Source: Membranipora membranacea
Taxonomy: Eukaryota; Bryozoa; Gymnolaemata; Cheilostomatida; Membraniporidae
NCBI GenBank assembly: GCA_914767715.1
Contig: OU612066.1
Coordinates: forward strand, 34,138,283-34,202,282
Direction of reading: 5' to 3'
Length of the DNA: 64,000 nucleotides
A program made the translations under genes and the position numbers. The notes under the pieces were generated by a model. It saw nothing but the letters and a program-made list of their open reading frames with translations, ran no database searches and had not been told where the DNA came from. The stretch's first letter is position 1. Every line of letters starts with the position of its first letter. Shown here one piece after another: positions 13,651-61,500 of this stretch.

Positions 13651-13660
13651 CCTTTATAAG
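13651..13660 (-). promoter_or_regulatory. TATA-like box of gene B
   Basis: CTTATAAAGG on the minus strand, 88-97 nt upstream of the gene B start codon. The same 10-mer sits at the same distance upstream of gene D (52,382-52,391), with diverged sequence between. Transcription would begin about 30 nt downstream, leaving a 5' leader of roughly 60 nt. Confidence 0.55.
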
Positions 13661-16787: not shown

Positions 16788-17079
16788 CACTATGGTCCCA
16801 TGTTGCGATTTCGTAAGGAATTCGGGAGTTATCGATCCATGGAAACAACATTAAGGTCACTTTCCGATTGTGACAAATGACTTTTTTGACGCGAATACAC
16901 ATACCGTGTTGAATCGATTAACTCTTAATTGGTTGCGTGGCTGATTGGTTAGCGCGTTATTGCGGGGACTGGGGTTCAAGTCCCAGCCGCGACAGATTCT
17001 TTTCATGTTTTTTCCATCATGGAAATGGTTAGCATTCATATTGGAGTGAACCACAAGTTCGAGGCATGGGACCATAGTG
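16788..17079. mobile_element. 292-bp MITE carrying a degenerate tRNA-like segment
   Basis: Perfect 15-bp terminal inverted repeats, CACTATGGTCCCATG and its complement, bound an insertion absent from the sister locus at about 55,160-55,205. Inside, 16,932-16,994 (+ strand) resembles a tRNA. It has a D-arm/A-box region (tggctgattggttagcgcg), a B box (ggttcaagtcc) in a paired T arm, and acceptor strands that pair at six of seven positions. Only about 15 nt separate the D and T arms, too few for an anticodon arm and variable loop, so it is not a working tRNA. The target duplication could not be resolved. Confidence 0.7.
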
Positions 17080-32600: not shown

Positions 32601-35600
32601 GCCTGCTTTATCTGCCTGCTTGGCTGTGTAGCTGTCATGAGTCATTGTCTCATGCAAAAAGAAAAGCTCAATTTAAAACAAAAATGTGCTTCTGAGCTAC
32701 AAAGCCAAAATATGCTGTCATGTGATTATTTAGAAATTGAATGTGACATTAAAGGCAGCCACAACTCAACACCAAGACTGCTATAAAGTTAGGACCTTTT
32801 TCATAAACTCTTCGATCATTCTAAAAGCAGGCATGCACTTATTCGCCAGTCATATTTCTTGTTGTTGAAAGGTATCCTATTATAGTATCCAATTCAGGAT
32901 CCATGGTTTCCGCTTGCCTGGACACACTTGGTATATTTTTGCCGAATGAAGATTATTCATACCTTCATAGTATTACCCATGTGCAGAATAGTCATTCACA
33001 CTGGTTACTTTCACATGCAAACTCTTACTGTCTCTTAATTGATGTTGATATAACCCATATCAGTCTTGTCAAAACACAATCTTGATCTTAAAAAGTTCAT
33101 TCACCGACACATAATGCCTTCATGAACTTTTCACTGATTATCAACCCTATGTGTACAACATATGACCCGCCTTTTTCAAACATTCGTCGAAGTGGCATAA
33201 AGACCATAAAAAGGTGTAAAAATACATTAAAATTACAATTTCAAACAGCATCGGAAACACTCTGTTTGGCAACACATATTGTAAATGGCGACAGAAATGT
33301 GATATATAGTTATGAGATGTTTTCATTTCAACCAGATAGAATTTCAAACTGTTTTGTGAAGTTTTTGTAACTTTTATACATTTGAAGGAATTCTGCAGAC
33401 ATTGAGACTGCAATTCAGACTTTTCTTCATAAAGTTATCATTTCAAGGTGCCAGAAAAAGTCAAATTCATGCTTTGAATGGCTGGTTACAGTTGCTTTCC
33501 TGTCTAAGACGTGATGTTTCACATTTTACAAACCGGATTTGAAATTGGAACATGCTGTCAAACCCTGGGATTATTGAAAAGCTATTAAACATTGAGCAAT
33601 ATTTTGCAATAGCAATAGAATCAAATGTCTGAGGAAGGAGTCTTTCCCCCAGGCAGTTCTGTATTTAAGGCTCCGACATCTGCCCGAGGGGAGTTTCTGA
33701 AGAAAATCGTTTAATAAATGTTCATCGTCATGTATTATCTGCAGGGCCAAGTTCTTAGTTCGTTTTGATATGACAGAATCCCCAATATCGAGACCTAGTC
33801 TGTCACTGTCACCCTGTTTAAAAAACTTCCTCAGTGCTTTCTTGTGTCGTGAATAGATACTAGTGAACAAAATAGGTGAGAATGGATACAATGAAACTCT
33901 TGAATAACATCACAGATTAATATATATATATATATATATATCCTTACTCTGTGATAACATGCAGGCTAAAGGCTTTGTACTCTGATAATTAAAAGTTCTG
34001 ATGACAAACATCCTCTGATTCACTATTGTTACAACATACCACTTGAAGTGCTTCCTCTTTCGGAACTTGGTGACCCGCCTTTTTCAAACATTCGTCGAAG
34101 TGGCATAAAGACCATAAAAAGGTGTAAAAATACATTAAAATTACAATTTCAAACAGCATCGGAAACACTCTGTTTGGCAACACAATTGTAAATGGCGACA
34201 GAAATGTGATATATAGTTATGAGATGTTTTCATTTCAACCAGATAGAATTTCAAACTGTTTTGTGAAGTTTTTGTAACTTTTATACATTTGAAGGAATTC
34301 TGCAGACATTGAGACTGCAATTCAGACTTTTCTTCATAAAGTTATCATTTCAAGGTGCCAGAAAAAGTCAAATTCATGCTTTGAATGGCTGGTTACAGTT
34401 GCTTTCCTGTCTAATACGTGATGTTTCACATTTTACAAACCGGATTTGAAATTGGAACATGCTGTCAAACCCTGGGATTATTGAAAAGCTATTAAACATT
34501 GAGCAATATTTTGCAATAGCTAGTCTTATACTCTGACCACCTTCTCCCTAAAGATATTCTTTTGCACATTATTGCAATAATATACCCATTGATTATAGCT
34601 AATGGGGTATCTAAACCTTGTGTAAATGCTTAATCTTCTATAAAGGTTGATGCTACTGTCAGAAACGGCCATCATTGACCAGAGCCCAACAAACAGGCAG
34701 AAATTAATGAAGAATGGCTCTAATGGCCACTCCGACTAAGGTTTTAGATTACAAATAAACTCACCCTGGTGTATTCATTTTGTATTTGCTGTTTGCTAAG
34801 AAACAGAAGATTGGGCTGCCCCTAAAGAGGGACGCAAGGTGCCCTAATCCTCATACTGAGAATGTGATACATTCTAGAAAACTAGAATGTATCCTAGAGA
34901 TGAGGCCATAGAGGACCTCCAAATCATAAGTGTGCATCAAGCTGCCAAAACTGAACTGGCACTAATCGGCCATTGGCAGTGACACTTTGATCTTAGCCAA
35001 TAGGCCGTGAAGCGATCTATTTTGTATTTTATCCATAACAAGTTTGACCATTTTAAATCTTTCTCTCGATGCAAAATCTATCTCACTTTATTATTCTTGG
35101 CCAGGTAGCTGCTGGTTGGTGATTGCCTAATTGTCCAGTTGAGTAGTCACACATCTGTAGAGGAATTCTCTCTTTTTTCGGTCAGGCTTAGAGATGGCGG
35201 ACACATACAGTAAACACAGCCTAGATAAGGAGATATATAAGAATAAGATGGTGCTTATAGTCGGAGGAGGTAACTCTGCTTTTGAAATCGGAGATCATTT
35301 ATCAGGAGCGGCTGCCATTGTCCACATTGCCTTCAACAAGAGAATACAGTTCGCCTGGGATACTCATTATGTTGGTAAGGTTGATTGGGTGAGAAAAAAT
35401 CATAGAATAAACAATTCCAGACTGGTTAATTGGATTGGACCTTATACCATTGAAATTACATGCTGCTGGAGTTTATTTCCTCTATGTGTGTTTATGGGTT
35501 CTTCAACACTAAATGTGCCTGTTCTATTCTTGGATAGCAATTAAGGCAATTAACTTTGTCATGCCCAGTGAGAAACCACTAAAACCCACAAATATGTGTA

Positions 35601-40394: not shown

Positions 40395-43300
40395 AAAGGT
40401 TCTGGATGAGAAGTGATTATCTTTCAGTGGATTGAACTCCTTATCAAATCTGGATCTGGAGATTTTAAGCGATATCAATGGTCGTCAGATGATTCCACCA
40501 GTGTGGTTTGTTTGTCTGGGACCCTGGGTTATTTGGTCAATAGATTTTAAAATAGAGTGTGTTAGAATTTTTCATACTGTAAGCATTTTTGGTTATAACA
40601 AAATGTAAGTTAGTGAATGTAATGATTTGACCGACGACCGACCTCTAATAGCAGGATTGGTGTTGTGGTTTGTTAGCTAGCTTGTCAGGGTGTGTGGGTA
40701 TTTATCAGTGGTGGTTCGTCGATTCCTTGCACACAAAAAACCAACGTTGTAATAGACTGAATGATTTGGTTTGTGGTTTGTCTTTGGCAGCAGTCACCCT
40801 CTCTCACTGTCATAAACAAGTCTAAATTGCTGTCGAGACTGAGTAGAGATTTATTGTGCTGCAGTGCATTTTTTCCTCTCACTGGTGTCACATTTTTCTG
40901 AGTGTGACCTATATTTTGAACTTCTGAGACATCCTTTATGAAATTTGATTCAAGTATACCGTGATCAATTGACCGAGGGTTAAATTTGGACAGGCACATG
41001 TGTGTTGACAAATGCAAATCTAAATGTTGGTCTTTAGCATGATAAATCACCTTTTCAGTTTCTCAGGAAATATTACTGAAAGGGGCAGTAACAGCTATAG
41101 CAACAAGATTATTCTGTTTTTTTAACTATATTCATCAATAATATCTATATGTTAAATCCTTTATCCAAATGTTTCAGTAAATTAAATCAAATATTTTGAA
41201 ATGATTCAACTAATAACTAGTATTGCATTGCATGCATGCATGTTATCAAGATTCAAGATGGGTAACAGTTGAAGAATGTAGATAAATTGATTGTCAGTCA
41301 GCACTAGAACCTGTTTCAAAATATTTGGTAGCTGCCAAGTTTTGGCTAGTTTCCACCATTCTATCAAATATAGATGAATGTTGCATAATAAGTCAAAATT
41401 AATATCAAAGAGATTCCTAGCTGGGATGTCAGGGATGTCATTTTATAGTCATGGTATTTGTTTCGGGCGATGAAGGCTTTACAGTGATCTATTTGCATAG
41501 TGTGTGGATCAAATGTTCTTTGGGAATTCCCAGAGATAGCAGTATTAGATTATTTGTTCAAACTTATCTAAACCCTCATAGAGTGCTGACTCAGTCAACA
41601 TGCACACTATCATCAATAAGAAACCATTGTAAACTGACGCCAAACATTTCTAGGAATGATGGAGTTGACGACCAAATTACTCCAAGCCAAAATAAATATT
41701 TCTTCCATCCAAGTGAACTACACCATGCACTCATTAGAGGTTACCCTGTGTTTTAGATCTCAAGCATAGATAATACAATATGGGAATATCTATCTATAAA
41801 AATAAATAATGACATTGCTAGCTATATTGAGCCTTAGTTTTTTGCTGTTCCTGTTGTATCTATTGGGATATAAATTGTATTACTATGTGATTATTTCTAT
41901 TGAGGCTTCATTCAAGTATTGCTGTAGGGTACTTCTGGAGTGCAAATTGAGTTAAGGATTTTAATTTGACTTATTTCGATTCCCTTGCATAAATACTGAT
42001 ACTATATTGAATTTCTGACGGACGGTTAAAGGGTATTCTTGCCATGTTAACAAAGAAGATGACTCCTAATATATCTTTTCTGTTGTTTGATCAAGGAGAT
42101 ATTCTCCAAAACTACCGTGACCGATGAGAAAAACAGCTCTCTCTCCTTTATTGGGATCATTCTTTGTGTTCTCTGTAGAGATCATGTATATGAGACACTT
42201 GGGTTGATACACAGTTTTGAGTACTGACTAATATTTAGTTTACTGTTGGGTGGAAAAGCCAGGTCAGAGCCAACACATTGGCTAACTAATATTGTAAAGA
42301 TGCAAAAAATGGTAGGTGACACCTGCATAAAATTTTTTCTATTGTCTTGCTTATTAAAAAAGATTGTATCTTAGTTGCAAAATATCAATACTCGTCAAAA
42401 TTTGGGTGTATAATCTCCTTTTTTGCAAAAGCCTCACCAAAGCTACTTATAAAACTGATCCAGATTAAAAATATTAAATCAATGTAATTAGTGATCTCTA
42501 AGCAGCTGATCAGAATTACCCATTACGTAAGTGACGGATTATGTAAATACTGAAAACGCACTGGATCTAACAAAAAAAAGTTGGATGCAAACTAAGTTTA
42601 ACGTAAAGAAAACCACGTATTATCTTTGGAAATAAATCAGAGAAAAAACAAGTGCGTTAACTCTTTTTAGCACAAATCTTTAACTTTGTTCTAGCTTCAC
42701 GCTTCAGCTTGAACGAATCTAAATAAAGTTATGGAGCATGTGAAGTGTTTGCAGGATTTCAGAAGTTCACCAACAGCTTAGCAATACAAGTCCACCATAG
42801 ATTTAGTATATTAAGTCTATGCCCTTCACACTCCTGTTATCCAAGCTTATATTTATATTTTGAACTTCTGAGACATCATTTATGTAATTTGCTTTAAGTA
42901 TACCGTGATTGATTGACCAGAGGGTTACATTCAAACAGGGATATGTGTGTTGATGAATGCAAAGCTAAACATCAGCGCGATATTATATCGCCTTTTCAGT
43001 TTCTCAGGAACTATTATTAGGAGGGTCAGTAACAGCTATAGCAACATAATTTTTTTTTTTTTTTAATTTTATTCATCAATAAATATCGATATGTAAAATC
43101 CTTTATCCAAATATTTCAGTAAATTAAATCAAATATTTTGAAATTTTTTAACCAATAATAGAATTGCAATGCATGCATGGTATCAAGATTCAAGATGGGT
43201 AACAGTTGAAGAATGTAGATAAATTGTTTGTAAGTCAGCACTAGAACCTGTTTTAAAGTATTTAGTAGATGCCAAGTTTTGGCTACTTTCCATCATTCTA

Positions 43301-46300
43301 TCAAATCTAGATGAATGTTGCATAATAAGGTATAATTATTATCAAATAGATTCCTAGCTAGGATATCAGTGATGTCATTTTATGGTCATGATATTTATTT
43401 CGGGCAATGAAGGCTTTACAGTGTCCTATTCCCATAGTGTTGGTTCTTTGGGAATTCCCAGAGATAGAGACTATTGGGTTATTTGGTTAAACTTAACTCA
43501 ACCCTCATAGAGTGTTGATCCAGTCAACTTGCGCACCATCATCAATAAGAAACCATTGTGAACTGACGTAAAAAAATTATAGGAATCATGGAGTCGATGA
43601 CCGAAGAACTTCCAGTAAAAATAAGCATCTCTCCTTACCCGATTAACTACACCAGGCACTCATTAGAGGTTATCTTTGTTTGCGATCTCAAGCATAGATA
43701 ATGCAATATGGATTATCTATCATACAAAAATAAATAGTGTCATTTGCTGCTATATTGAGCCCTAGTTTTTCTGTCGTTCCTGCTCTATCTATTGGGACAT
43801 AAATGGTGTGGTTTCTATGAGATTTTTTCTGTTGAGGCTTCTTTCATGTATTTCTGTGCGGTATTTCTGTGCGGTATTTCTGTGCGCTATTTCTGGAGCA
43901 TCTTGACAACTCTCCCTACTTGGCAGGCAGGGAGAGTCCCAGTTTTTAAGGGTCTTTACCACCCCTTCCCTATCTCCCTTTTTCCTCTCTTTTTTCAGCA
44001 TCCTTTACCTAGAAAAAATTTTAAGCTTCTTTTTGCAAGGGAAACTATGTTTTCCTACCTTCACAGTACATATTACTATGTATTTGTGCTTTACCATTAC
44101 TGCTTGTAAGCAGCTATTCAATATCTTTACCTGGCTGTCTCTCAGTGAAACTAAATCTCCTCCTGATTTCTTGGTTCGCAAACTTGTCATGTATATTCTG
44201 TAGTGGCAAATTGAGTTTAGGATTTTGATTTGACTAATTTCCATTCCATTGCATATGCTGATACTAGTGTCAGGGTTTTCTTGTCATGTTAACAGAGAGG
44301 ATGACTCATAAAACATATTTGCTGTTGTTTGACCAAGGAGGTATTCTCCCAAACTCCCTTGACCGATGACCCTCTTTCCTTTATGGGTTCGTTCTTTGTG
44401 ATCTTTGAGACACTTGGGCACACAGTTTTGAGTACTAACTAATATTTAGTTGGCTGTTGGGTGGATGAGCCAGTCAGATTGCCAACACATTGACTGACTA
44501 ATATTGTAAAGATGCAAAAATGGTAGATGACACCTGCATAAATTTTTCCTATTGTCTTGATTTTATCTTAGTTGCAAAATATCAATACTCGTCAAAATTT
44601 GGTGTATAATCTCATTTTTTTGCAAAAGCCTCACCAAAGCCCCTTATGAAACTGATCCAGATCTAAAATATTAAATCAATGTAATAAGTGATCTTTGAGC
44701 AGCTGATTAGAATTACAATTACGTAAGTGACGGATTATGTAAATTCTGAAGACGCACTTGATCTAACAAAAATGTTGGATGCAAACCAAGTTTTACGTAA
44801 AGAAAACCACGTATTATCTTTGGGAATAAATCAGAGAAAAAACTAGTGCGTTATCTCTTCAAGTTTGTTCCAGTTCCACATTAGCCCTGTTCACACGGCC
44901 ACGGGTTTTGGTTTTTTTGGCCCGTGTGTGAACAGGGCTAGTTCCACATATTGACAGAATCTAAAAAATGGTTGTGGAACATGTGAAGTGTTTGAAGGAT
45001 TACAGAAGTTCACCGACAGCTTAGCAATACGTGTTCTCTATTTTCAAGTGTATCTTATAAATAAATAGAGATAATACTAAATTTCAGAAAGATAATACTG
45101 ATATAAAAGTTCAAAGCAGTCTTATAACACCTGAGAATTTGTCTCAAATTGGGAATGCTATCAGTATGCAGTCAGAAGCAATCAAGTGAAGCCTTCAGAG
45201 TTATAATTACAAGGAAAGTAGAGGCTGCAGTCGGGGATAATTCCTAATTTCTGTTGTCGATTATTGAATTGGTCATTAATGGGTGCCTCTCGATTTACAC
45301 TAAATCTGTGTTTTTCCTTTTCATTTCTACAACCTAGACCTATATACTCAACCTGAAAATTTATCTGACATCACTTTTTGTATACGTAATTGGTAAACTT
45401 TGACAGACTTTAAAGGATTCAGAAATTACAGTACATAGCTGTAACAGTCTGTCACACATCTGTCTGGTGTGATGACCCTAACAACATTCTGAAACTTTGA
45501 TCTTAATTCTGGTGTGTATTGGTTATATGGTTAGAAACCAATAATCGTTTTCCACGTTGTAGGTTAACTTGGAAAAGGAACAAGAGAATGATTTATACCA
45601 GGGAGATTAGAATGCCAAAAATAAATAAAGTTCTCAATCTTAATCATTGTTTGTTTTGTATTCTTGCTCAGACACAATGAGTTTGAATTTTTGATCACCT
45701 TTGAAACCCAACATAAAAAATACATGTAAATAAATAGTAGCCAGTATTGATTATCTAGCAGTAACGCCTGCCAGTAAAACCATGCATCAGAGCAGATTGC
45801 TCAAATATCCTTATTCAATGTTGAATTCTGGTCAATGTTAAGACAATGAACAGAAAAGAGTAAAAGGTTTTAGGCTAAGCTAGGGTAGGCTATACCACCA
45901 TGCAAATTATAATCATCCCCACGTTCTGTCGACAGAGTCAGAATGAGTTTATCCCATTGGTCAGATCAGACTTACAAAATCATAGGGGGATTAGGTTTAT
46001 TCTCAAGTATTTATTTTTCTATGTCTAGTGGTGTGTGGTCATATAATGGTAGTTATATAATGTTTGGCGGCAAAGTGAATTAAAAAGGTTAAAACGTTGG
46101 TTTACATTGTGATGGGCCAGGACCTACAGGTCTGCTTTATTTTTAAGAAATATTCTCACAACAAGCTCTGCGGCACTCTTATGATATAGGAAATCACTGG
46201 TTTTACATATCTAGAGGCTGCCTTGGATTGAACTGGTAAAATTCGGTGCGAGGATCTTGAGACTTACAGGTGTATTATATGAAGACATAGCTGATAATGA

Positions 46301-47132
46301 GACTTTTCCAGACACTCAGCAGACTTTACTATAGTAGGGTGCTTTCCGCTTTGCTACACGTCTCTTTAGTTGAAATACCACAAGACAACAAATTAGTTGT
46401 TTATGTCATTGAAAGAGCTTGCGACTAGTGTTGACACATCATCAGTTTTTTTGTTTATGGTTCTTACGAATAATCAAAGTAGAATGTTGCTGTATACTGC
46501 CATCAGGTCTAACTCCTTGTTGCCATTTATCCTGAGCAGCAGTTTATTTCACATCGGCCAATTTGGCACTGCAAACAACATGCTATATGTCAAGATTGAG
46601 TGTGCTATATCTAATCTTCAATGTAAAATTCCTGATTTGATGTCATTCCACCAAAGCAAGGAATGGTAGGGGTTATGGTGCACATCATTCACATGGTATC
46701 CTCGACAGCTGTTACTGATATAGACGCTTTAAAATGTATCACAATTGTGTGTTTTAGTATAATTCAGTATGAGTAAGGAGTTTGTAACATGGTTTACTTA
46801 TTATTGCCATCTTAGGAGGAAAAAAATGTAATACCTTAGTATAAAAAAATATAATTATAAATAAAGCAAAAGCTTGAAATAACAAAATAAATAAAATAAT
46901 ATGGAACATCTGACCATTGATTGGCATGCCTTAAATTGCGCGTTTTAAAACTGCGCTTACAATAAATTTAACCAATCAGTCACACGGTATGTGTGACAAA
47001 CTATTTTACCACAACACAGTATGTTTGATTTTTTTACAGCTCAATTCATATAAATTGGATATAAGTAAAAGGAGATGAAAGACATAATACTGCATGACAT
47101 GAAAAATAGAAAAATGTGTACTTTTAATAGTG
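40395..47132. other. Spacer between convergent genes C and D, with internal 2-kb tandem duplication
   Basis: Collinear with the A-B spacer except that 40,911-42,791 is repeated at 42,855-45,029; unit 1 has one copy at about 4412-6300. Between the copies, about 42,797-42,854 resembles 39,905-39,965 from the gene C 3' flank, a sign of a complex rearrangement. The second copy also carries about 300 bp (roughly 43,899-44,205) missing from the first. No gene recognised; open frames here are not conserved between copies. Confidence 0.65.
44882..44940. mobile_element. 59-bp MITE with TAGCC ends and perfect 9-bp target duplication
   Basis: Ends TAGCCCTGTTCACAC and its complement, with a T-rich centre. 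Direct repeats gttccacat flank it exactly (44,873-44,881 and 44,941-44,949). The unit 1 locus (about 6192) has one gttccacat and no insert. The ends match the 109-bp element at 15,338. Confidence 0.85.
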
Positions 47133-50100
47133 CTAGCGCTTTGTAGAGCTCATATTATCACCACTTTGAAATGGTTGCTCTATTCGCTTTGTTTGAGGGG
47201 AGAGGGGAGGAGTGGGAAGACCAATATTGTCATTTTCACTAAAAGCCAGAACTGAGGCCATGATATCTCCTCTGGTAGGTTTGAGTACTCTTTGTTGTTC
47301 AGATACAGGGTTAAGAGGTAGAAGTTCTTGAGACGGTTTACACTCTGATTTCTCCCATAGAGGAGGGAGTCGTTTCATCTCTTCTTCGGTCAAAGGTACA
47401 AATATCTGTTTGATGATGTGTTCTGGCAGTGGAACCAAGTTGAATGTCTCTTTGGTCCAGTTCATCTGCAGAAAAGAATTGGAAATAGTTAGGCACTGTT
47501 CAAGTCCAATCATTTGTGCTAACAATTCGAACAACCCTTCCCTCCTAATACTTGTCTGCAAATGGCGTCCACTTGTTTTATGTTGAATATCAGTATATCC
47601 ATGCCATACATCAAGTTGACCACCCCTCGACCCAACTGAGCAATAGATTATTGTTTAATGATAAAAAAGTCTCTGCAACTAAAAAGATGTTCAAAGCACA
47701 TTATAGATGGCTATAGCTTGTCTTCACAAGCTTTGCTCAGTCCCCCCTCCAGACCAAGCTTGCCAAGACAGGCTAAGTATACTGTAGGTGTGAAATTAAT
47801 TATTTTGCGATAAATAACCAAATAGTAATGTTGGGCTAATGTTGAATTTTCCTACTAAATATGAAAACTAACCTTCTCATTGACAAAGTGTTTGATGTAA
47901 TTTTCATTGGCGGTGAGAGGCCATTGTGGGAACTTGTTACATGTCCAGGCATCAAATCTGACAATTAGAGCCTCTTGTAGTTCTGTCTGGTCGATGTATT
48001 CACCAAAGCTGTGATACTCTATGTATGGATGTAGGAATGAGGCACATCTATTACTAGAGAAATCCGGAGCGTGCACATTGTCTACTGGCTTAGCTGTGGC
48101 TCCAAACCTGTAATATCATATAGACTCATGGAAGATCAAACACTTACACCTGATAAATGAGCTATTTAGTCATTTTCAGCACTGGTAGTAGAGATTTGGC
48201 CTAAATATTTCAGCCTATTCCAACAGAAAATCAAGTGTGTGACAAGCGGCCTTACTAAAAAATGGCATTGGGACTGTTGAAGTAGAGCTAAGAACCAGTT
48301 TAATAGCACACCGCATAAACGTTATAATCAAGATAAGAATCCGCTACTCACTTGTCAAAACCATATGAGAGGTGGAAGATGAATACATGTTTGGCGTTTC
48401 TGAACTCTTTTCTCTTCATCACATAGTTTCTGGGTAGATCTGTGTAGTAAGTAGTTTTGCCTTCATCATCACAGACCATGATGTCACACATAAATCCATT
48501 CATCTGATACAGAGAGTCACTGATTGATGAGCGACCTACAAAGATATTCAGTGCTTTAAAGTTTACGCTAGATTTCCTGGGACAATGTCAATCAGAGTCA
48601 CTGATATTTGGCCAAAATGATTTTCAGGTTTCAAAATCTCAGTATAACAATTGAATGTTGAAAACTCACCAATTATCTTATCAGCAATAGCTTGGAGTTG
48701 TCTGTCTGCGATTGTTTGATGTGGTAGAGGAGTAGAGAAGAGCCTATTCTCTAGTATATTGTGTAGGGTTCTGATGTTGTATCTGAATCCATGAATGAAA
48801 CCGGAAGCTGATTGCCTGTCTTTGACGGCCATCGCTGCTCCGATATAGAACAGGTTCTCTGTGTCTGTCTCCCAGCAGTCACTCAGTGAAGGATATCTAT
48901 CATTCCTCATAGTCTCTACAAATGTGACACCCAAGGATATAACGATGACATCGATGGCTTTTGTGACAGAACAGTTCTGTAAGTTCTTTATCCCTGCAAT
49001 GCTGTTTATGTTTATAAATTGGATGTCTGCCAGGTTTAACAGAAATCTTGTTCCAGAATGGCCATGAATAGATTGATCACAACTTGGAAGGGCGGACGTT
49101 ATGTCAAAATACATGTTGGCGCTGAGTAAGTCCTCAACACCTATTTTGATATTCAATACTTTTATCACATCCTGGCTTGAAAGACAGGTCAGGATATGGA
49201 AGTGCTTATTTACGAGCTCTTACCTATTCTGATGGTGTCATCAAAGATTTCAGGCTTCACATATTTCCATCCCATACAGCTGATGACATGATCATACTCC
49301 ATATCAAAGTAGAGATAGCCAGGAACATCCCAGTGTGTGTTCAGATCTCTGAAAGTTACCACAAACTTTCCAGCTTCGTTCTTCACAATTTTCACGACAT
49401 GACTACCAATAGTAGAGTGTAGAGACTTCAGATGGTACATGTCAATGATGTTGTTATTCACAGCTCTCAAATCACCTGCAATACAAAACAAACCTTAATG
49501 TAAGAATAGCGCAATAAATCAAAATTTACTTCAGCAAAGCCACAAGTAGTAAAATTTTGAATACATAATCTGTTTTACCTCAGTAGTTGTACAGTTACGC
49601 AGCTATGCTTTGATGATCATAAGATAATAAAGAGATAATGTATGTAAGTAAGAGATAAAATTACCGCTAAATGGTGTCAAAAATGTAGAAGGGTTCAACC
49701 AAACCTATTGTTTTCATTCTGATAACATACAGTGGTACCTTTACGTGAGTAATACTACACATGTTTTTATTGATTTAATGTTCTGTTCCAGCAGATTACA
49801 ATCTGTTTCTTGGATACCAGCACATTGCATAGTCAACAATGAAGAGACCAAGACATTTTTATAGACATTGTGTGGTAATGGTTAAAGATTGCCGAAAATG
49901 ATATAATTTTCATATTATACTGGGTATTATTCTTTTGTATAATGATGGATAGGCCTGGTGTGGAACTCAAATGTTCAGCAGCGAGGGAGGCAAGTGATTC
50001 AGGCCTTAATTATTCAAAATAAGTAAAAAATGGGAGAATTATCTTCGTATATATTCTTCTTTTGATTGCTCCTGCAAATCACATAACTTCTTATGACCTA

Positions 50101-52294
50101 ACGTCATTTAAGTTTTTTGAAGATATGGCGGTTGCGAAAAAAGTTAGGATGGTAAAATAACTCTAATAATTGCATTCCATATGCAGTTCATTATAAAATT
50201 GCACTGGCAGATAAAACACTGATCAAATTTAGAATAAAACCAAGTTATACTCTTACCAACATAATGAGTATCCCAGGCGAACTGTATTCTCTTGTTGAAG
50301 GCAATGTGAACTATGGCAGCTGCTCCTGAAAGATTATCTCCGACTTCAAAAGCCGAGTTACCTCCTCCGACTATAAGCACCATCTTATTCTTGTATATCT
50401 CCTTATCTAGGCTGTGTTTACTGTATGTGTCCGCCATCTCCAAACCTGACCGAAAAATTATCAGGTTAATTTATTAAATTGGTGATCACAGCAAATATGG
50501 TGACAATATTCATGATTAATCAAAAAGCTGTAGCCAGCTGTAGCCAATTATCAAGGAGCAAGGCTACAACTTTACATTCCGATATGCTTTCATCTATAAG
50601 TCTTCATTGCTGCACAGGTGAATTCAAGTTTTGTTGTGATTTTGTAATTTGAATTCCTTAAATTGTCTTAAAAGTTAGAGATATGTAATGGAATGTTTGA
50701 GGTTGGCGATCAGTTATTAAATTATCATATTTGGACAGTCAATGTTCCTCAATTGATTGCCATTACGCAGGTCATAAATTTTATTTTTGCTTTCGAGAAA
50801 TGTCTTTGAGGTTTTTACACTGACGGGTTTCAGTTATTTAAATAGCAGCTGTGCTGTATAGAAAGCAGTCATTCTCCAGAATTAATTTTAACATAGAATT
50901 GTGCATAGCTGTGACTTTTCTGATTGTTATAATTGTGAAGACTCACAACAGGGAATGTTACCAACTAGATTCGGCAGCCTGGAGGATGTCAAAGTTTTAG
51001 GCGCTTTGTTGGTTGGTTATAGCCAGAACCATAAAATTTTAGCTGTCCATTGTACAATTTTATAAATAACCATTGACTTCAAAGATGAGTTATGGCAAGA
51101 ATTTTTGGCCATAGTTGAATTATTATGTTATGTTTCCAAAAGATTTCGTAAAAGTGAACCTTGCAGGCGCCTCATCAAAGGGAGGAGAGACAGCCTGATG
51201 CCAAAAATAAAGGTGGAAAGACATTTTTGACACAGCCGGAATTCATAATGGTTCTACAAGTCCATTGATCTCAGGATGTTTAAAAATTTACATTTGACAA
51301 CTACGTATGTTTACAACATTTTTTCCTCTATGATCTACAGCAACCAAGAGGAATTAAATAGTATTTCATACACATTATCGATGATAGGATTAAACCATCC
51401 GAACATGAAAACTCCAATTTGACTGTGGTCAGAGAGAATTAATGTATACAAGACGTACTAGCTGTCGCAAGCAAAGAACTCCAGCCTCAATGGTTTTACA
51501 ATCGGATGAAGTGAAGAAGATCTCACCTTGAATATTTTCTGGTATGTTCTCTTTCACAGCTCCTGTAGCCATCAGAACACATTGCGCTGTACAGGAAGCC
51601 ACATTACTGCCATCTTGGTTAGCTTTTGAAGTTTCAATATTGAATATACTGTTAGTTTTGCTGATTTTGGTAACTCTGGTGTTGTATTTGATATTGAGCT
51701 GGAATCTCTCAGCAAAGTCATTGAGGTATTTGTAGAGGTCTGACGATTTGGGGTACAAATCATCAGAATATTCTGTGAATCTCATCTGTCGATCATCAGA
51801 GAGAAGAGAATTCCAGTCGTGCCTCAGATTAAACTCATCTTCAGTGAATAAATTGTGTTTCTTGTTCAGTGATATCAGTTTGTTATGTCGGGGATGCTGA
51901 GAGAAGAATGATGCTGCCTTATCTGCTGCCTCAAAGACAACATAGCGTCGGGAGGACTTCTGTAGAAAGTAAGCCATCTGTAATCCTGCAGGTCCTGCTC
52001 CCACTATTACATAATCATACTCATTTGTGCTGTCCATACTGCTAGATGGCTGATGATCTGAAGAATGAAAAACAAAACATGTATGTTATCAGAGTAGCGA
52101 TAATTGATGAGATACTTTGGGTAAGTGATTTGATGAATTGGGGTCAAGAATAATGATCATTACAAAATAAGAACTGAACTGCAATTGTTACTCATCTTAA
52201 TGCGCTGATAAAAGAGACTTAGATATATGTATGAATAAATATCATATACATTTTGCTTACCATTGGATGGAATCTCTGATAGTTGAGGTGCCAT
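47133..52294 (-). CDS. FOXRED2-like: FOXRED2-like FAD/NADPH oxidoreductase, gene D
   Basis: Complete eight-exon gene on the minus strand: 52261-52294, 51527-52057, 50257-50445, 49224-49475, 48670-48915, 48352-48535, 47874-48108 and 47133-47465. They give 2004 nt, or 667 aa plus stop, all in frame. Same motifs as gene B (GAGPAG, ATG, GGGNSA, SASGFIHGFRY) and the same tail peptide LPTPPLSP at 640-647. The encoded start (MAPQLSEIPSN) and the TATA-like box are shared with B, so D is B's positional counterpart. Yet in exon 5 (GAAMAVK, ENRLFS) and part of exon 2 (NDFAERFQLNIKYNTRVTK) D matches C rather than B, suggesting sequence exchange with its convergent neighbour. No signal peptide or ER-retention tail. 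Probably functional; substrate unknown. Confidence 0.88.
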
Positions 52295-52381
52295 ATCACT
52301 CACAGGGTTCAAGTCTTAATTGAAGAGCTGCAAATATGGAGAGTTAAACCAAGAATGTTGTTTTCAAAAGAGAGGATAGAC

Positions 52382-52391
52382 CCTTTATAAG
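52382..52391 (-). promoter_or_regulatory. TATA-like box of gene D
   Basis: CTTATAAAGG on the minus strand, 88-97 nt before the gene D start codon. It is identical in sequence and spacing to the box upstream of gene B. Confidence 0.55.
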
Positions 52392-55300
52392 ATACCTGTA
52401 ACCAATCAGCATTCAATATAGAACTTTTAGGCTATTTCATTGGCCTGTCCGAATCGATGGTAAGGATCCATGTTATTATTATGAAACAAGCTGAATAAAT
52501 GATGATGTTCCTTGTTTGGTTTGATGGATGTTCACCGCAGAAATTTAATAAACACATCTGATATTCTTCTAATGATGGATTACATTGGCTGTTTTCTAGG
52601 TGATGGCTTAATTTCACTTTGTTTCATTTGTTGTTCCTCAGAGCAGTAGATACATTTCTTGGACCGCACACCATGTAAATTCAGACGCAGTTGTTGAAGT
52701 CTCCTAATTATATGAAATTTTAACAGCCAGGGGCTTAAACACTGCTGCTTAGTAAATTGACCAATGTGAATCCGCAACGTGAAACACTGGCAGGATATGC
52801 TACAGGAGCAACTCTTTTTTTAAGCCCTTGCCTTGTAAGCTGTAGCTAAGAAGGTCTCCAGCCGGTGGCAAGAGATTTGGGGCAAGAGTCCGGGGGGGGG
52901 GGGGTGTGGGGGGGGGGGGAGGTGGCAAGACCACAACATTGTATGCCATTTGTGGTGTTTTAGGTAAAATTGTACAGGATGAGTAAGGTACAGATTGTTT
53001 GTTAGAATGATCTGACTTTGATTCGGGAGACATAGGGGAACAACACTGTATTGGTCACATCAGCACTAACTTTCAAATGGTTTGTACTAGTTAACATAAG
53101 TTCCTCTTGAGAATTTTTGACTAACCAAACTTTATTTATGTGCTGGGAGGAGCTGAGGTTTACTCTAATCACTCCCTTCCTCTGTTTATTGTCTACAGGA
53201 TTCATTTTGATAATCTGGTAATAAGCGAATATTTGGTGGTAGCCGGTAACCACTCAGCAGTCAGACGTACATAAGGGTTTTTGGTTCCTGGCGGAAAAGT
53301 TTCTCCGGAGTTGTAACCAAAGTTTGACAAAACGATTTTGAGTAAACACCCCAAGGAGTATCTGGTATGGATTATATGCATGATAAAACTATTAAGTACC
53401 ACCAAATAGAATTTTATATATTTAAATCCCAGCCAAACCCTTGAATTAATTACGTAAGCTAGGTTTCATTAAACCGATTTACAGATTATATGACATAAGT
53501 TTCGATTACCGCAAGAATTATAAAGTATTGCCGGGAGAGTTTTGGTTAATTCTGGTAAAGTACTTGAAACATACCAACTGAATACGTAAGACGATTTTGA
53601 CAGTGCACAAGAGGTAACACCTGCTCTTTCATGATTGATTCATGATTGAGTACCACCTGCTAACAAATACTCTTAACACACACCAGCTCAAGGGGAGGGA
53701 GAAAATAGTCTTAGTACCATCGTCAGGTCTGCCAATCCATGTCAGCTGTGATTGGAAGTTTTAACGCATACCTGGGTAGGTCAATATTCTATCGATAGCA
53801 TAAACAGGTATTATAAACAAGCGATGGTAAGGTAACAGATGTCTGAAAACAAGTGTTAATTTGTTATTAAATATTTACCATCATCAACAATCTTGTCTTG
53901 TGAACGGGAAATAAAGGATCAGCTTATTATTATGCCATCATCTCAGGTAGGTGTGGCCAAGGCAATTGAGGAAAAAACCTAATCAAATAATATTCTATAG
54001 GTAGTTGCATAATTTGGTTTGATTCATTGGGAAATATAGAAATGATATTATCTACCATAGAGGCGTAACATATTCCCTGAAGGAAGACTTTATCAGATTT
54101 GAATTGGCAAAATATTATGGCTAGCTAACCTTCATACAACCTCATCATTAATCCTAGCAATTGTGAAAATTAGTGCTAGCTAAAATTAAGTCTACCCAAT
54201 GTAGTGAAATTATACTCTATAGCTTATACTTACCCCTCTAGGATATGGAGTTATAAAGCAGCAGATGATGGATGGAAATTTTCTTCTCCATTCAATTCAT
54301 AAGAAACCACAAATTTTTTATAAACCATGACAGGCCACAACGTATTGTCTTTAAACAATAACCCTTACCAACTTCATCTATAAGATTAACCCAACAACCC
54401 TAATTTATACAATTATCCTCACCACCTACATTTACTTTTACCCCTTTATCCTAATGCCATACACCAACTCTCACTAGCTGTCACCAGTTTGTGGGATAAA
54501 AGATATTATTTGAAATAGAAACCTTAGTCTCTGTTGTTGTGTAACCATAACAATGTCATAGTTTGCTTATCCCTGATTAGTACATTCCTGTGTCGACCAA
54601 CCGAAATGCTGGAATCTTTATTTTGTGTATCAGCAGGAGTCGACCAGGATCTGTCTGTGTGTAAACAGGATGACAGATGATTGTCATTCATCATATAAAT
54701 CACTAACCTCTATATACCTGAAGCATGAAGGCATCATTGGTTGTTTTAGTTTGACCATCTGCAGATTTCCTCTGGCTTACACTTGACATCGGGTGTTCAT
54801 TGAGACATATTTCATTTTAAAAAATGAGTGAATGTAATATGACTGGCCGTAATTTAATGTAGAATGTCATTTGCCATTGATGAATCAATCTGTAAACAAA
54901 CTGTTTAGGATTGATTTATTTGCAAACAGACTATCAGTATGCAAGAGTTTACAACTCGACAGGAATCCTGAAACGAGAACCCCTCGGTATCCGTCCCTAG
55001 AGCTTGAAAAGAAACCATATTTTACAAAAGTTACTAGTCCGGATACAAGATTTATGCTTCCTTGTAAAATAAGAAAATAGCAAACATTGCTAGGATGGTG
55101 GCAAATGATGTGATACAAATCTTTGAGTAGTTAGGAAAATTATCATTACTCGGCTACACCATGGTTTTATGCTCATCAAGCACATTATCTAGTCATCATC
55201 AAGACATGAACTAAGTGGATGGGCTAATTGCCGAATGGCTTTATATGGGGCTCCCTGCGCACAAAGCTGTCTTCAATTTCTTCAGAGAAAATAGACCAAT

Positions 55301-56800
55301 CTTCAATTTTAAAACTCCAATCTTCAGACTTAATTCTTCAAAAGAACTGGACCGTGGTGTTATCTACTCATTTCTGCTTAGAATGACCCATGTGCTTGAG
55401 TTTTGGTTTTGTTTTGATAGGCTAACGAGTTTAAGTTTTTTATTGCTTTGACTTGTTTCTCCAAAACACCTAATTGAATTGTTTGACTGAATTCCAGTCT
55501 AAAATCTTTTATTGATTTTTCATTTAAACTGACTAAATCTTTTCTTCAACTTTAAAACACTCAATCTTCAATCTTCAATAAAATAGCAGAGAGCCCCTTA
55601 TATTTTAGCAGTATATTCTGTGGGAATTAGAATCAATTGGAATCAATGACCCAACATAACTATTGCTGTAGAAATCAAAGAAAGGTGAAAAAGTTCCTTC
55701 CTGAAGATTTTTAATAACCCTAAACACGATTTACACTCTTTTATACCTGAGAGGCAGTCTTTGAATCAGAGACATTCCGCTCGCTGCAAGGATTCTTTTA
55801 TTACCAGAGCTAGGACCACCAAGTGCGAAAATACATCATTCAATTTTTCAGTTCAAAATTTTATCTGGGAGCATTTTTAAGCCAATCGTATTATATAAAT
55901 GTTTTTCAACATTTCTTACGGTGGAAAATCAACTTATAATCTATCTAGCTGCATACAGTAGCACACACAGGTATGCTTCAAGTTTCCTAAACATATTTGT
56001 TTTCATCAACGCAGCTTGTTACTAATTGAGAGATCAAACTTTCCGGATAGAGAATCAGGAATGTAAATAAGTTTCACCTGCGGTCACCCTCGGGTTACTC
56101 AGGGCCAAATTCGGGATAATCCGAAAATTATGTTTTTTTTTATGATTTGCGTAGCATGATTTAGAGTTCAACAACATAAGCGTAATGTACAAATATGGAC
56201 AATAAATGACAAATTACATATTTTTGGGAGTTTTAGATGAATTTCATCAATGCTAGGATTATAATCTTTCTGACAGGATAGTTATGATGACGCACTGCAG
56301 CATTAGAAATAAAACAATCAGAATATTTATCTGAGTTGTTAAGGCTTACCCTTATTCATGAGGTTAGTATGCCAAACCCTAATGGCTGATCCTTACACAA
56401 TAGACTCATTATGGCCAACTCTAGGCGGATCACTAACTGAACTCTGCTATCAGCTGATTCGAATTTTTTTTGCCAGAAGCTTACCGTTTTGAAATACAAC
56501 TCTTCTGCGGCGACAGTATTAATATAAGAAGCTTTTTCTCCATGGGCTATGTGACATAAGTTAAAGCTTGGTTGAAGTAAAACTGTTATAAATACATGCA
56601 TCAACCAAAGGAAGCAATCATTGATAATATCTCGTTATTAAATTGACTTAACTACAGCTGATCCACACATACTGATAGAGCAGAAAACTTCTATCTACAG
56701 ACACAACTAACGCCTATGGTGTTTGGTCAGCTTTACTCATATAATAGTTATTCTATATCCATTTCTGAAAATTATTCATTAATTACCCTGAAGCCTCCTA
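52392..56800. other. Duplicated flank of unit 2, no gene seen
   Basis: Counterpart of 13,661-18,350. It lacks the two MITEs found there and has its own changes, such as a G-rich tract at 52,892 and short local differences near 55,215-55,600. No conserved open frame. Similarity to unit 1 ends at about 56,800. Confidence 0.6.
52892..52919 (+). repeat. G-tract, possible quadruplex
   Basis: Thirteen G, then TGT, then twelve G. The sister locus in unit 1 lacks it. It can form a G-quadruplex in principle and is a likely sequencing and assembly weak point. Confidence 0.6.
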
Positions 56801-58171
56801 CACCGGGGATTTCATGCTTTGCTTTACAACGGGTCGATGGTTTTTGTTAAGTTATCTCTTGGTATATAAAAAATCATAACCAAGAATCATTACCTAGGGG
56901 GTGTTTTTACTATTGTCAATCACTTTGTAAACAAACGCTTAAGATTAATTAATTATCAGATCCCAAAATACAGTACCAAGCCTAATCAATCAAAGTTGCT
57001 TAATTTAGAGCTGACATGAGGAGAAAATTTGACAAATAGATACCATTAGCTCTAGCTGTCAGATTGATGTAACCTAATAGATTTACCAATTTATTAGTAT
57101 GTGTCTTTGTGTTGTCTTTTGTATGGCTGTAAGAACTTCAGGAATGGTTATCACCAAAACAAAACTGACGCTAGATTCCGATGGAGGATGCCCTCGGTTT
57201 GGTTGATTTTATTCCTCCAAACTTGGTTGTCAACAACCTTGTATCTATCCACATCGCCGGAGCATCATTGGGTGAGTATATTTTAAGTTTTATTCCTGGA
57301 GTTATGCCTCTATGTGTAAAGGGGAAACAACTCCCTATTAACCAAGGCATGATTACCATCAGGTGGCGGGTTGCCAATATAATGAAACATTTTTGTGAAT
57401 TCTGTTATAAACTTCAGTATCAATTATACAGGTAATATCAATGCATATTATGACATCATACACATGCAAGCCATCCTAATAACAGGTATTCTCAAGCACT
57501 CCCATGATGCTTTGGTGGGTTTGAGAGTTGGTTGTCTGCCATCCATACCATCCGACTTATCAAGATAGTTGTTCTCTAAAATCATTTTGCATTCCTTCTT
57601 TGTTCTGTATATTTTCCACCCACGCTCACATTTCGAACCGTCTGGCACACAACAATTCATTGACAATCCAGGATTGTTATAACCATAGATAGAAAAAATA
57701 TAACAGGTAAACCGGTGTCATGATTTGGTCTCTAATCTTCCCCCACGTTTCCAGCTTGACCTTGGGGGCATGTTCCATATAAACTTGTTGCGAGGGATGG
57801 GTTGCCCATTATGATGGCGTGACATAATGCTTGGGACTCCTGTGCTATCCTGGGTTTAACTCTACAATTTCAACTGTCTTTCCATCCGCCAAACCAGATG
57901 CTATCTAGCCCACAACAAAGATATAACATACAGTAGTGTGCATACCACCGCTCAACACACATGTCTTCAGCTACAAGCCATGAGTCATGTGCTGTTTCAA
58001 AGCCTTCTCTAGTACAACCTCCTCTTTTTTGACCCCAGTAGTATGAAGCCACCCCTGTGTGTTGATGGGCATCTCGATCCATCATTTCTATCCCTCAGTG
58101 CGCATTTGTCAGTTTCGGTATTTTGGCCTAGTCGGTGTGTTTTCGCTGTTGCGCAGCCAAAAACCAAAGCA
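56801..58171. other. Unassigned region with weak exon-like pieces
   Basis: Two places look slightly gene-like. On the plus strand 57,175-57,270 lies between an AG and a strong GTGAGT donor and can encode DFIPPNLVVNNLVSIHIAGA. On the minus strand 57,870-58,085 and 57,448-57,666 are open frames with uneven composition. None resembles a family I can name and no neighbouring exons were found, so I assign no gene. Confidence 0.3.
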
Positions 58172-58243
58172 GGTCAAGATGGGTCTCGAACCCGTGACCT
58201 TCTGCGTGTAAAGCAGATGTGATAACCCCTACACCACTCGACC
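58172..58243 (-). tRNA. tRNA-Val(UAC)-like sequence
   Basis: Seventy-two bases fold as a tRNA. The acceptor strands GGTCGAG and CTTGACC pair at all seven positions (one G-U). The D arm contains tggtgtaggggttatcac. The anticodon stem-loop is TCTGC-TTTACAC-GCAGA with anticodon TAC. The T arm, with GGTTCGAGAC, has one mismatch. A T5 run about 9 nt downstream could end Pol III transcription. It could be a working gene or the head of an unrecognised SINE; no body or tail is evident. Confidence 0.65.
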
Positions 58244-58578
58244 TTGCTGCCATTAAAACTGATGGTGTCAGCTCGGCGGCAAGAAAGCTGTACGCAATCT
58301 GAAAACCATAACATTTGAAAGAAGAGAGATGTTGGGAAATCAGGCGGGAACATGAAACAATACCAAAAGCGGCAACTTCTTTATCACGGGAAACATCATG
58401 TTTCATGGTCAATATGGTACAACAACTTCTATGTGTCTGCGTACATAAGAATATTATTTTCTAGTGTAGCGAGAGTGTAACTCTAAATCAAGTCAATGTC
58501 TAAACTGTCCAGCAACCTTTGACATAATATATGTGACACAGTTTCACGTATCAATGAAGACAATTTTGAGCTTTCGCA

Positions 58579-58830: not shown

Positions 58831-59049
58831 CCAGTTTGTAACTATAGGCTAATTGCTTTGCCAGTTACTCCCCAGTGGAGGTATAGCCTTGTTATAGTCT
58901 GGCCTTGGCTGTCATCTGAACTGGGTAATCAGAACATCAGTTTCCTAGCTTTTATCTCCTATAGTTGCAAACAGTAGCGTACATGATCTTACCGCTATAG
59001 CAAATGCTATGTGAAGCTGGACTCCAAAAGCTCCTAATATCTATTTAAT

Positions 59050-59070
59050 CAATGAACTACCTCTTCATTG
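59050..59070. mobile_element. 21-bp palindromic micro-element, perfect 7-bp target duplication
   Basis: Ends CAATGAA and TTCATTG around a 7-nt centre. It is flanked directly by atttaat on both sides (59,043-59,049 and 59,071-59,077). Same end type as the elements at 59,954 and 60,090. Confidence 0.7.
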
Positions 59071-59144
59071 ATTTAATACTGTCCACTACCATCGAATTAA
59101 AGTTTTGAAAAGTAAGGATGACTACCTACCACTGAGTAAAATAG

Positions 59145-59204
59145 TTCTCTGCTTGTGTATATAAAGTGATTTGATTCTCTGCTTGTGTATATAAAGGGAT
59201 TTGA
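59145..59204 (+). repeat. 30-bp tandem duplication
   Basis: Two adjacent copies of a 30-bp unit beginning ttctctgcttgtgtatataa, with one difference. Confidence 0.8.
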
Positions 59205-59249
59205 TGCGTATAATAAAGGCCAATAAAGCTATGTAGATTGAATATAATT

Positions 59250-59730
59250 GGTTCACAATGTGCCTATTATCGGGTGACAGTGGGTTTAATATTGGGTGAT
59301 TGTGCCTCATATCGGGTTATAGTGAGCCTTTTATGACGCTTGACTGAGCCTAATTTATCGCTAAGTAGGGCCTAATAAAATCGCTCAGCGGTGTATAACA
59401 TCGCTTTGTTGTGCTTATTATATCGCTGAGCTGTATGATAAATCGCTCAGATGGGCCTTATTTCTCGCTCAGATGGCCATATTTCTCGCTCATAATAGCC
59501 ATAGTTCTCGCTCAGATGGCCTTATTTCTCGCTCAGACGGGCCTTATTTATCGCTCAGCTGTGTCTAATTCATCGCTCTATCATGCCTGTTTTATCACTG
59601 AGCTGTCTAATAACTCGCTTAGCAGGGCCTAATAACTCGCTCAGCAGGCCTAAAAACTCGCTGGGCAGGTGGGATAAATCGCTGAGAAGGGCCTAATAAC
59701 TAGCTTAGCAGGACATAATAACTGAGCTTG
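59250..59730 (+). repeat. Degenerate minisatellite, unit about 20-25 bp
   Basis: Roughly twenty imperfect repeats of a unit like atcgctcagatgggccttat. The core cgctcag and the block gggcctaat recur while spacing and bases vary. Stops occur in the repeats, so it is not coding. The variation between units indicates an old array. Confidence 0.75.
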
Positions 59731-59895
59731 ACTTATAAATCTATGGATTATTGGCCACTGCAGAATGTGCTGTAAGCAGGGATGAGAAGGAGAATGCTGT
59801 GTAAAACTACCCTAGGTTGAACTATATATTAGACCATTGATGATTGGACAATCACACATACACTTACTAGGTAAGTCTTTCCTCTATAATCTAAG

Positions 59896-59912
59896 CAAGG
59901 AGTAACTCCTTG
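59896..59912. mobile_element. 17-bp palindromic micro-element
   Basis: CAAGGAGTAACTCCTTG, an inverted repeat with a single central base. The flanks are atctaag (59,889-59,895) and atctaat (59,913-59,919), 6/7 identical. The ends are the same as at 6159 and 60,528. Confidence 0.65.
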
Positions 59913-59953
59913 ATCTAATAAGGATCTAATGATATACTCACAGTCACTATGAC

Positions 59954-60029
59954 CAATGAACTAAACTAATTTTTACAAGTTTAGTTCATTGCTGAAGTTT
60001 AGTGCCATTACTAAAGGTTTAGTTCATTG
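59954..60029. mobile_element. 76-bp micro-element in the 59.9-60.2 kb nest
   Basis: Starts CAATGAACTAAAC and ends GTTTAGTTCATTG, inverted copies. It also holds an internal AGTTTAGTTCATTG, as if partly doubled. Perfect direct repeats ctatgac flank it (59,947-59,953 and 60,030-60,036). Confidence 0.7.
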
Positions 60030-60036
60030 CTATGAC

Positions 60037-60196
60037 CATGGGGCCCTGGGACTTACATGTCTTTACTTTGCCAATGTCCACTATCAACCCAATGAACTCC
60101 CTCAGGAAGAGGGAGTTCATTGATCAACCACCCAGTGGTTGATAGTGGACATTGGCAAAGTAAAGACATATAAGTCCCAGAGGCCCAGCCCCATGA
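60037..60196. mobile_element. Hairpin MITE hosting a nested micro-element
   Basis: Arms of about 53-60 bp (from catggggccctgggacttac at the left) fold back on each other. The element is bounded by ctatgac at 60,030-60,036 and 60,197-60,203. Its loop is interrupted by the 33-bp element at 60,090 with that element's own duplication. Without it the hairpin would be about 120 bp. Confidence 0.65.
60090..60122. mobile_element. 33-bp micro-element nested in hairpin, perfect 7-bp target duplication
   Basis: Ends CAATGAACTCCCTC and GAGGGAGTTCATTG around a 5-nt centre. It is flanked by atcaacc at 60,083-60,089 and 60,123-60,129. Insertion into another element's loop shows it is younger than the hairpin. 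Confidence 0.75.
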
Positions 60197-60527
60197 CTAT
60201 GACCCTTAGGCTTGTTACTTGTAACAATGACTAGGACTAGTAAGATGGAGTTCCTCCTTCAATGAGTCCTTGCTTGTAATTTAGGTGAGTAGGAAAGGAA
60301 ATTGAAAATTTAGTTGGCAGATTTGGATGATTAGTCCTAGTCATCTGTCAAATCAGTTCTACCATTCTAGCTGGCTTGTCATTGCCCTCTGGTAAGGTTT
60401 AGATGTTATATAACTAACTCACTGTTGTAAGTAATAAGTAGGACTGGGCATACCTACATAGCATAGTACCACAGCTGCATTTCAAGAGTGTGCGGTAGCC
60501 CAGGACTAGGAAACACAGTAGTTCTAT

Positions 60528-60543
60528 CAAGGAGTACTCCTTG
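60528..60543. mobile_element. 16-bp perfect palindrome with perfect 7-bp target duplication
   Basis: CAAGGAGTACTCCTTG, a perfect palindrome with no spacer. It is flanked by gttctat at 60,521-60,527 and 60,544-60,550. It is the smallest member of the family and consists only of joined terminal repeats. Confidence 0.7.
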
Positions 60544-60989
60544 GTTCTATGTCACAGGTCTACTGGGATTTTGGCAATGTTTGACTGCCCCCAATGTTTG
60601 ACTGCAAAAACTCACAGGGGGGGGGGCAGTCAAACATGCAGCATAGGTATTTTTTGGCAAGCGAAGTGTCAGTAGTTACGGTATGGTTATTTATATACTC
60701 GAGTCCCCAATAAAATGCCCCAATTGACAACTATTTTTTCCAAATGTAAAATACAGTATATCGATAATCGCCTATTGTTAGTCATTTCTCCAAGCAGCTT
60801 GCCTTTTTGTTGTTGTACTTGTAGCATACAGATAATATGGAGTTTTGTCCCTATGGGTCAGACAGCAAAAGTAGAAGGTGGGTAGTCATAGTAATTATGG
60901 TTTATAAGAGGTCTCAACATTTTCCAACGAGGTATATCACTCTTCTGAATATGAGTTACTGTTTTTCGCAGTACTAGAGACTCAGGGAG

Positions 60990-61423: not shown

Positions 61424-61500
61424 TGATAGCTATAGTGCCTGCGGTTTTCGATTCACTGGGGACCCCAGTGAATCAAAAACCGCAGGCACTATAGCTATCA
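61424..61500. repeat. Near-perfect 38-bp inverted repeat, 1-nt spacer
   Basis: Arms 61,424-61,461 and 61,463-61,500 match at 37 of 38 positions around a single A. It would extrude as a cruciform or form a very stable RNA hairpin. No coding sequence and no flanking duplication recognised. Confidence 0.85.

Follow-up and report, generated by a model that had tools for sequence, protein, structure and literature searches.

The 64,000-nucleotide window of Membranipora membranacea DNA analyzed here (the whole stretch; all positions are counted from its first letter) contains diverged copies, in both orientations, of one region (approximately 1–18349, 30900–38330 and 40395–56793), in which pieces of open reading frames resemble FAD-dependent oxidoreductase domain-containing protein 2. 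Two direct duplications are very recent or else represent duplication in the assembly, namely 32291–32542, which recurs at 33616–33867 (100% identical), and 33163–33613, which recurs at 34071–34520 (99.6% identical). The window also harbors nine short palindromic inserts of 16, 17, 21, 32, 33, 35, 35, 48 and 76 bp, i.e., of eight distinct lengths, flanked by 7-bp direct repeats that are perfect in seven inserts and match at six of the seven positions in the other two. The arms of the inserts match over 7–14 bp, and the ends form three groups, CAAGGAGT, CAATGAACT (including a mixed CAATGACT/CAAGGACT case) and CAGGGAGG. Seven of these palindromes had been reported in the initial annotation and are present where it placed them, five with perfect flanks and two with a 6/7 match as it described; six were found again in a blind search and the seventh, at 7545, in a later one. 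The remaining two were identified by an end-motif search (60225–60272) and by a motif-free search (6820–6854).

The 32-bp insert occupies positions 6159–6190 between two copies of GTTCTAG (6152–6158 and 6191–6197; 6152–6197 with the flanks), and its ends, CAAGGAGTAA and TTACTCCTTG, match at 13 of 16 positions. One 35-bp insert (6820–6854; 6813–6861 with the flanks) lies between two copies of ATTCCAC and has the ends CAGGGAGGGTGGGA and CAGGAAGGGTGGGA; the other (7545–7579; 7538–7586) is bounded by TTCTAAT and CTCTAAT (6/7) and has the ends CAGGGAGTTAG and CAAGGAGTTGG. The 21-bp insert (59050–59070; 59043–59077) is flanked by two copies of ATTTAAT, the 17-bp insert CAAGGAGTAACTCCTTG (59896–59912; 59889–59919) by ATCTAAG and ATCTAAT (6/7), and the 76-bp insert (59954–60029; 59947–60036; ends CAATGAACTAAAC) by two copies of CTATGAC. 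The 33-bp insert (60090–60122; 60083–60129; ends CAATGAACTCCCTC), with ATCAACC on both sides, lies in a larger palindrome, within its left arm; the 48-bp insert (60225–60272; 60218–60279), with the ends CAATGACT and AGTCCTTG, lies between two copies of CTTGTAA; and the 16-bp insert CAAGGAGTACTCCTTG (60528–60543; 60521–60550), which is indeed the shortest of all, as first proposed, lies between two copies of GTTCTAT. When all 7-bp direct repeats are scanned, the output is mostly noise apart from one further candidate outside the nine, a 43-bp AT-rich insert at 33911–33953 (33904–33960 with two copies of ATAACAT) with the ends CACAGATTAA and CACAGAGTAA.

A search for perfect 7-nt arms no more than 100 bp apart detects 870 pairs in the window. 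Perfect flanking 7-mers accompany six of these, five of the inserts and the pair at 48521–48594, and a 6/7 match accompanies eight, one insert and seven other pairs. The repeat at 48521–48594 is an unrelated 74-bp inverted repeat, with the arms TGATTGA...TCAATCA, perfect GAGTCAC flanks and ends unlike those of the inserts; it is perhaps a chance product. Together with the seven 6/7 pairs, it is what speaks for the possibility that the palindromes arose by chance, or as repair insertions without any transposon. In a stricter count, restricted to the 539 outward-maximal repeats, 59050 and 48521 drop out, as by coincidence the palindrome continues into their flanks. Six of these repeats start with CAANGA and have flank matches of 7, 6, 2, 7, 7 and 7 (the score of 2 belongs to the inner half of the 76-bp insert), whereas among the other 533 none has 7/7 flanks and three have 6/7. 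When the end motif itself is used (CA[AG]NGA...TCN[CT]TG pairs, 14–300 bp, n=151), 7/7 flanks are found in six pairs and 6/7 in two, all eight being inserts, and the best of the other pairs reach 5/7 (two pairs). Outside controls, which covered CAAGGAGT and CAATGAACT arms rather than CAGGGAGG or CAATGACT ends, comprise, among the matches listed, 153 palindromes from viral contigs (120 + 33, with exact CAAGGAGT or CAATGAACT arms) and 119 from prokaryote contigs (CAATGAACT arms); none of these 272 reaches 6/7 and four reach 5/7. Across all nine inserts, the duplication appears at k = 7 and at none of k = 5, 6, 8 and 9. The 7-bp duplications claimed in the initial annotation thus exceed chance, and the common ends at independent sites, the fixed length of 7 bp, the target motif and the empty sites described below contradict a chance origin of the set as a whole, which we consider exceedingly improbable; single members could be due to chance. 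The tiny palindromes are genuine insertions, each of which duplicated 7 bp of its target.

Empty sites were sought by removing an insert together with one target copy and matching the remainder against the 64-kb window, in which the diverged copies of the repeated region supply paralogues. Three of the nine inserts (6159, 6820 and 60090) have such a site, which bears out the existence of an empty site reported earlier and raises the count from one. The site of the 6159 insert is empty in the paralogue at 42628–42758, with one GTTCTAG and a diverged right side, and in the paralogue at 44822–44881, with one GTTCCAG followed directly by TTCCACAT; that of 6820 is empty in the paralogue at 45827–45958, with one ATACCAC; and that of 60090 is empty in the opposite arm of the palindrome (60202–60123), with one ATCAACC. 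It follows that these three inserts are additions, each of which arrived with a duplication of 7 bp. No empty site for the remaining six inserts was found in the window; in the case of 7545, there is no clear empty paralogue and the alignment is too poor for a site call. Further insertions were also sought in the paralogous blocks: none of the 88 gaps in 55 BLAST pairs has a duplication of at least 6, and global alignments of the paralogues detect five weak cases with 5–6-bp repeats and none with 7; both procedures also miss the known inserts at 6159 and 6820.

The window contains several other repeats. A 59-bp hairpin at 44882–44940 (TAGCCCTGTTCA.../...TGAACAGGGCTA), with a 9-bp duplication, GTTCCACAT, is located 8 bp from the site whose 6159 paralogue holds the 32-bp insert. 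Another hairpin, at 61434–61490 (AGTGCCTGCGGTTTT...), has ATAGCTAT on both flanks, and its ends are ambiguous because the flanking 8-mer is palindromic. Amid the insert cluster, at 59358–59723, units of approximately 22 bp (TCGCTCAGATGGCCTTATTTC) form a degenerate tandem array, and 8.3 copies of a 61-bp unit form a perfect one, GC-rich by eye, that extends from 63492 to the end of the window at 64000. The larger palindrome that contains the 33-bp insert is a palindromic insertion at 60037–60195 with the ends CATGGGGC and GCCCCATG. It is followed on the right by ACTATGAC (60196–60203), which is also present on its left (59946–59953) once the 76-bp insert and the extra CTATGAC are set aside. Judging from this arrangement, we read 60037–60195 as a probable earlier insertion, with an apparent 8-bp duplication, that was later struck twice, once at its left border (76-bp insert) and once in its left arm (33-bp insert). 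The position of the 76-bp insert exactly on that border is a coincidence without an explanation.

All nine targets have T at position 2, and eight of them have A at position 6, which corresponds to nTnnnAn; given the base composition, the respective probabilities are 3.5e-5 and 5e-4. When the first eight targets are symmetrized, T2/A6 is found in 15 of 16 positions and T3/A5 in 8 of 16. The target is thus firmly nTnnnAn and weakly nTTnAAn. The TCTA core noticed originally is present in four of the nine targets, and T2 (9/9) with A6 (8/9) is the better rule. Among elements of the P superfamily, 1360 from Drosophila melanogaster makes a 7-bp duplication at the symmetric motif GTTNAAC, close to nTTnAAn (PMC3276498), Galileo makes a 7-bp duplication at GTATTAC/GTANTAC, with the same T2 and A6 (PMC4168063), and the Drosophila P element makes an 8-bp duplication at GTCCGGAC (PMC3276498). 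By duplication length and motif, the target of the inserts is of the P-superfamily 7-bp type (1360/Galileo). 1360 itself is a full transposon and not a scar, and the likeness to it rests on the duplication and the target, not on the end sequences; Galileo is likewise a full element, with long, internally repetitive terminal repeats. The ends of the inserts share with P (CATGATG) and Pdre2 (CATACCTG), the two elements compared in place of an end library, the first two letters, CA, alone. Of the two kinds of enzyme that had been suggested for these palindromes, a P-like transposase fits the 7-bp duplication and the symmetric target of 1360 and Galileo, whereas Dada is not favored. Dada elements target specific RNA genes; the only RNA gene found in the window, tRNA-Val (58169–58244), carries no insert.

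Elements or remnants of the hAT superfamily with an unusual 7-bp duplication are a very unlikely source of the inserts. The hAT end rule, YARNG, fits the ends CAAGG, CAATG and CAGGG. The symmetric T..A target resembles that of hobo, which duplicates 8 bp at NTNNNNAN (PMC3276498), and hAT entries with a '7-bp TSD' serve as an example of a text search in a Repbase paper (PMC4455052). However, the duplication is 7 bp, not 8, in all nine inserts, and the flanking 8-mers match at 1–3 of 8 positions, so that a hAT-type 8-bp duplication is absent. In addition, hAT elements excise with hairpin formation on the flanking DNA and are not known to leave their ends behind, so that scars of the kind considered below would not be made.

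The inserts are probably scars left by the excision of cut-and-paste transposons that belong to the P superfamily and have 7-bp duplications and a 1360/Galileo-like target, perhaps of two or three families with the ends CAAGGAGT, CAATGAACT and CAGGGAGG. Cleavage by the P transposase falls, on one of the two strands, 17 nt inside each end and generates 17-nt tails (PMC7776569). In the proposed scheme, a transposon would enter an nTnnnAn site and duplicate 7 bp, a step to which the duplications, the motif and the empty sites attest. By analogy with P biochemistry, the transposon would then leave, with one strand cut by the transposase at the precise ends of the element and the other approximately 17 nt further in, so that up to 17 nt of each end would stay on the broken chromosome. 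Finally, end joining would unite the tails through a short microhomology, for example TA, as a blunt join, or with the addition of filler copied from adjacent sequence. The remnant would consist of a target copy, up to 17 nt of one end, a mirror of up to 17 nt and the second target copy; such a remnant, lacking the inner transposase-binding site, should not move again.

Sequenced joins left by excision of P{wa} have the form target copy, CATGATGAAATAAC(AT)GTTATTTCATCATG, target copy, plus variants, and show TA/AT microhomologies and templated fillers (PMC2895639). They resemble the inserts in having two target copies around no more than 17 nt per terminal repeat, joined by TA/AT microhomology, bluntly or with templated filler. 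They differ in that their target copies are 8 bp long, they have one end sequence (CATGATG...) and they were induced in laboratory flies lacking Rad51 (PMC2895639), whereas the inserts have 7-bp copies and several end sequences and are known from genome sequence. Because two target copies, end tails and microhomology or filler constitute the anatomy of P end-joins, the inserts are taken here as scars and not as mobile units. The nine insert lengths show no detectable difference from those of 44 P{wa} joins (Mann-Whitney p 0.58, KS p 0.70), a comparison in which n=9 gives little power and the joins come from Rad51-deficient flies. These 44 joins, which span 7–44 bp, are the Table 1 isolates that keep both target copies, the other 22 of 66, which do not retain both, being omitted; two joins among the available rows of Table 2, from flies also mutant in pol theta, measure 76 and 78 bp (PMC2895639). 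Joins that consume the target, the commonest class, are unrecognizable among the inserts by the duplication criterion.

With a limit of 17 nt per end (approximately 34 bp), five of the nine inserts, at no more than 33 bp, need no filler and the two of 35 bp need 1 nt, whereas the inserts of 48 and 76 bp exceed the filler-free limit, which counts against the scar reading unless filler is invoked. We infer the individual joins as follows. The 16-bp insert, CAAGGAG(TA)CTCCTTG, is what would result if two CAAGGAGTA ends were joined through a TA microhomology, and either side of the 6159 insert shows the same end. The 21-bp insert (59050–59070) can be divided into 14 nt from one end (CAATGAACTACCTC) and 7 nt from the other (TTCATTG), and the 33-bp insert fits 17 + 16 nt of the ends. 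In the interior of the 76-bp insert, 15 nt of the insert's right end occur a second time, together with the first 2 nt of the target (the 15-nt match was reached in 0 of 1000 shuffles), which is in favor of copied filler. In contrast, the filler of the 48-bp insert shows no template, with 965 of 1000 shuffles giving a match as good.

Comparison of the interiors bears on the alternatives in which the inserts are themselves mobile elements. After trimming 10 nt from each end, an interior of at least 6 nt remains in six of the nine inserts, and the longest word common to any of the 15 pairs is 6 nt. Homogeneous copies with a common length and interior, the mark of MITEs, are thus absent from the window (eight lengths in nine inserts, 15 interior pairs). 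This is at odds with the view that each insert is an extremely small non-autonomous element, a MITE reduced to its terminal inverted repeats and moved by a P- or hAT-like transposase, although such elements would be genuine insertions with duplications and empty sites and would account for the conserved ends and the 7–14 bp matching arms. Transposase binds well inside the element end, the THAP site of Galileo being located at about 70 bp and the P site at 53–63 bp (PMC3688188). Because these sites lie about 53–70 bp inside the end, inserts of 16–48 bp do not contain a transposase-binding site. The P-MITEs of Anopheles gambiae are comparable in that they are non-autonomous, derive from P, retain both ends and have duplications, but they measure 205–2450 bp, have 5–310 copies per family and make 8-bp duplications (PMC1562414). 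Considering these differences, a MITE origin of the inserts is unlikely. The initial annotation viewed the palindromes as tiny cross-mobilized units; this view is not supported in the 64 kb covered, given that the interiors are unshared (15 pairs), the sizes are in the range of excision joins and the inserts of 16–48 bp lack the inner binding site. Mobility of the 16–35-bp inserts, for which a P-kind transposase would have to excise and reinsert little more than two fused ends, is quite improbable; if they were mobile, they would be the smallest transposable units described.

Alternatively, longer palindromic elements might have inserted and then lost the middle by cutting at the hairpin tip or by replication slippage, keeping the ends and the duplications. 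The conserved ends and unlike interiors are explained equally well in this case, and longer palindromes do exist nearby (60037–60195 and 44882–44940). Nevertheless, such a collapse is distinctly unlikely: it does not by itself predict the 32–35-bp group or the TA join, the copied filler of the 76-bp insert is a mark of break repair, and a longer version with these ends was not found by a search of limited reach in the window. The evidence that argues for excision scars comprises duplications beyond chance, three sites that occur empty elsewhere in the window with one target copy, the T2/A6 target, the 17-nt-tail biochemistry, P{wa} joins of like form and length, filler copied from the insert's own end and the absence of common interiors.

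Against an origin by excision, the parent transposon was not found in the window. A search for pairs no more than 12 kb apart that have a perfect 7-bp duplication and CA..TG ends, and in which the first 16 nt are at least 68% identical, matches five small inserts only and misses those at 59050, 7545, 59896 and 60225, i.e., it recovers five of the nine known inserts. This search omits two-letter-only or mismatched duplications, and therefore could also overlook a parent that is intact but whose duplication has aged. A scan up to 3 kb gives a 1161-bp pair at 1630–2790, which is unconvincing as a parent. A Pfam search (E 0.01) with 7 of the 17 ORFs of at least 120 aa detects no THAP or RNase H transposase domain.

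Natural excision footprints of this kind are not described in the literature titles and abstract openings covered here, and a description may still be in print. If the inserts are scars, bare genome sequence would record past P-type excisions together with the mode of rejoining of each break (microhomology, blunt or copied filler), and repair of the polymerase-theta kind would become readable in animals that are beyond the reach of the Drosophila assay. Short palindromes with duplications should, accordingly, be inspected for their interiors before they are annotated as MITEs. The presence of nine inserts in 64 kb in which no parent was found suggests that, locally at least, more excision traces can be present than elements that survive, and, if these are scars, departed elements would become countable.
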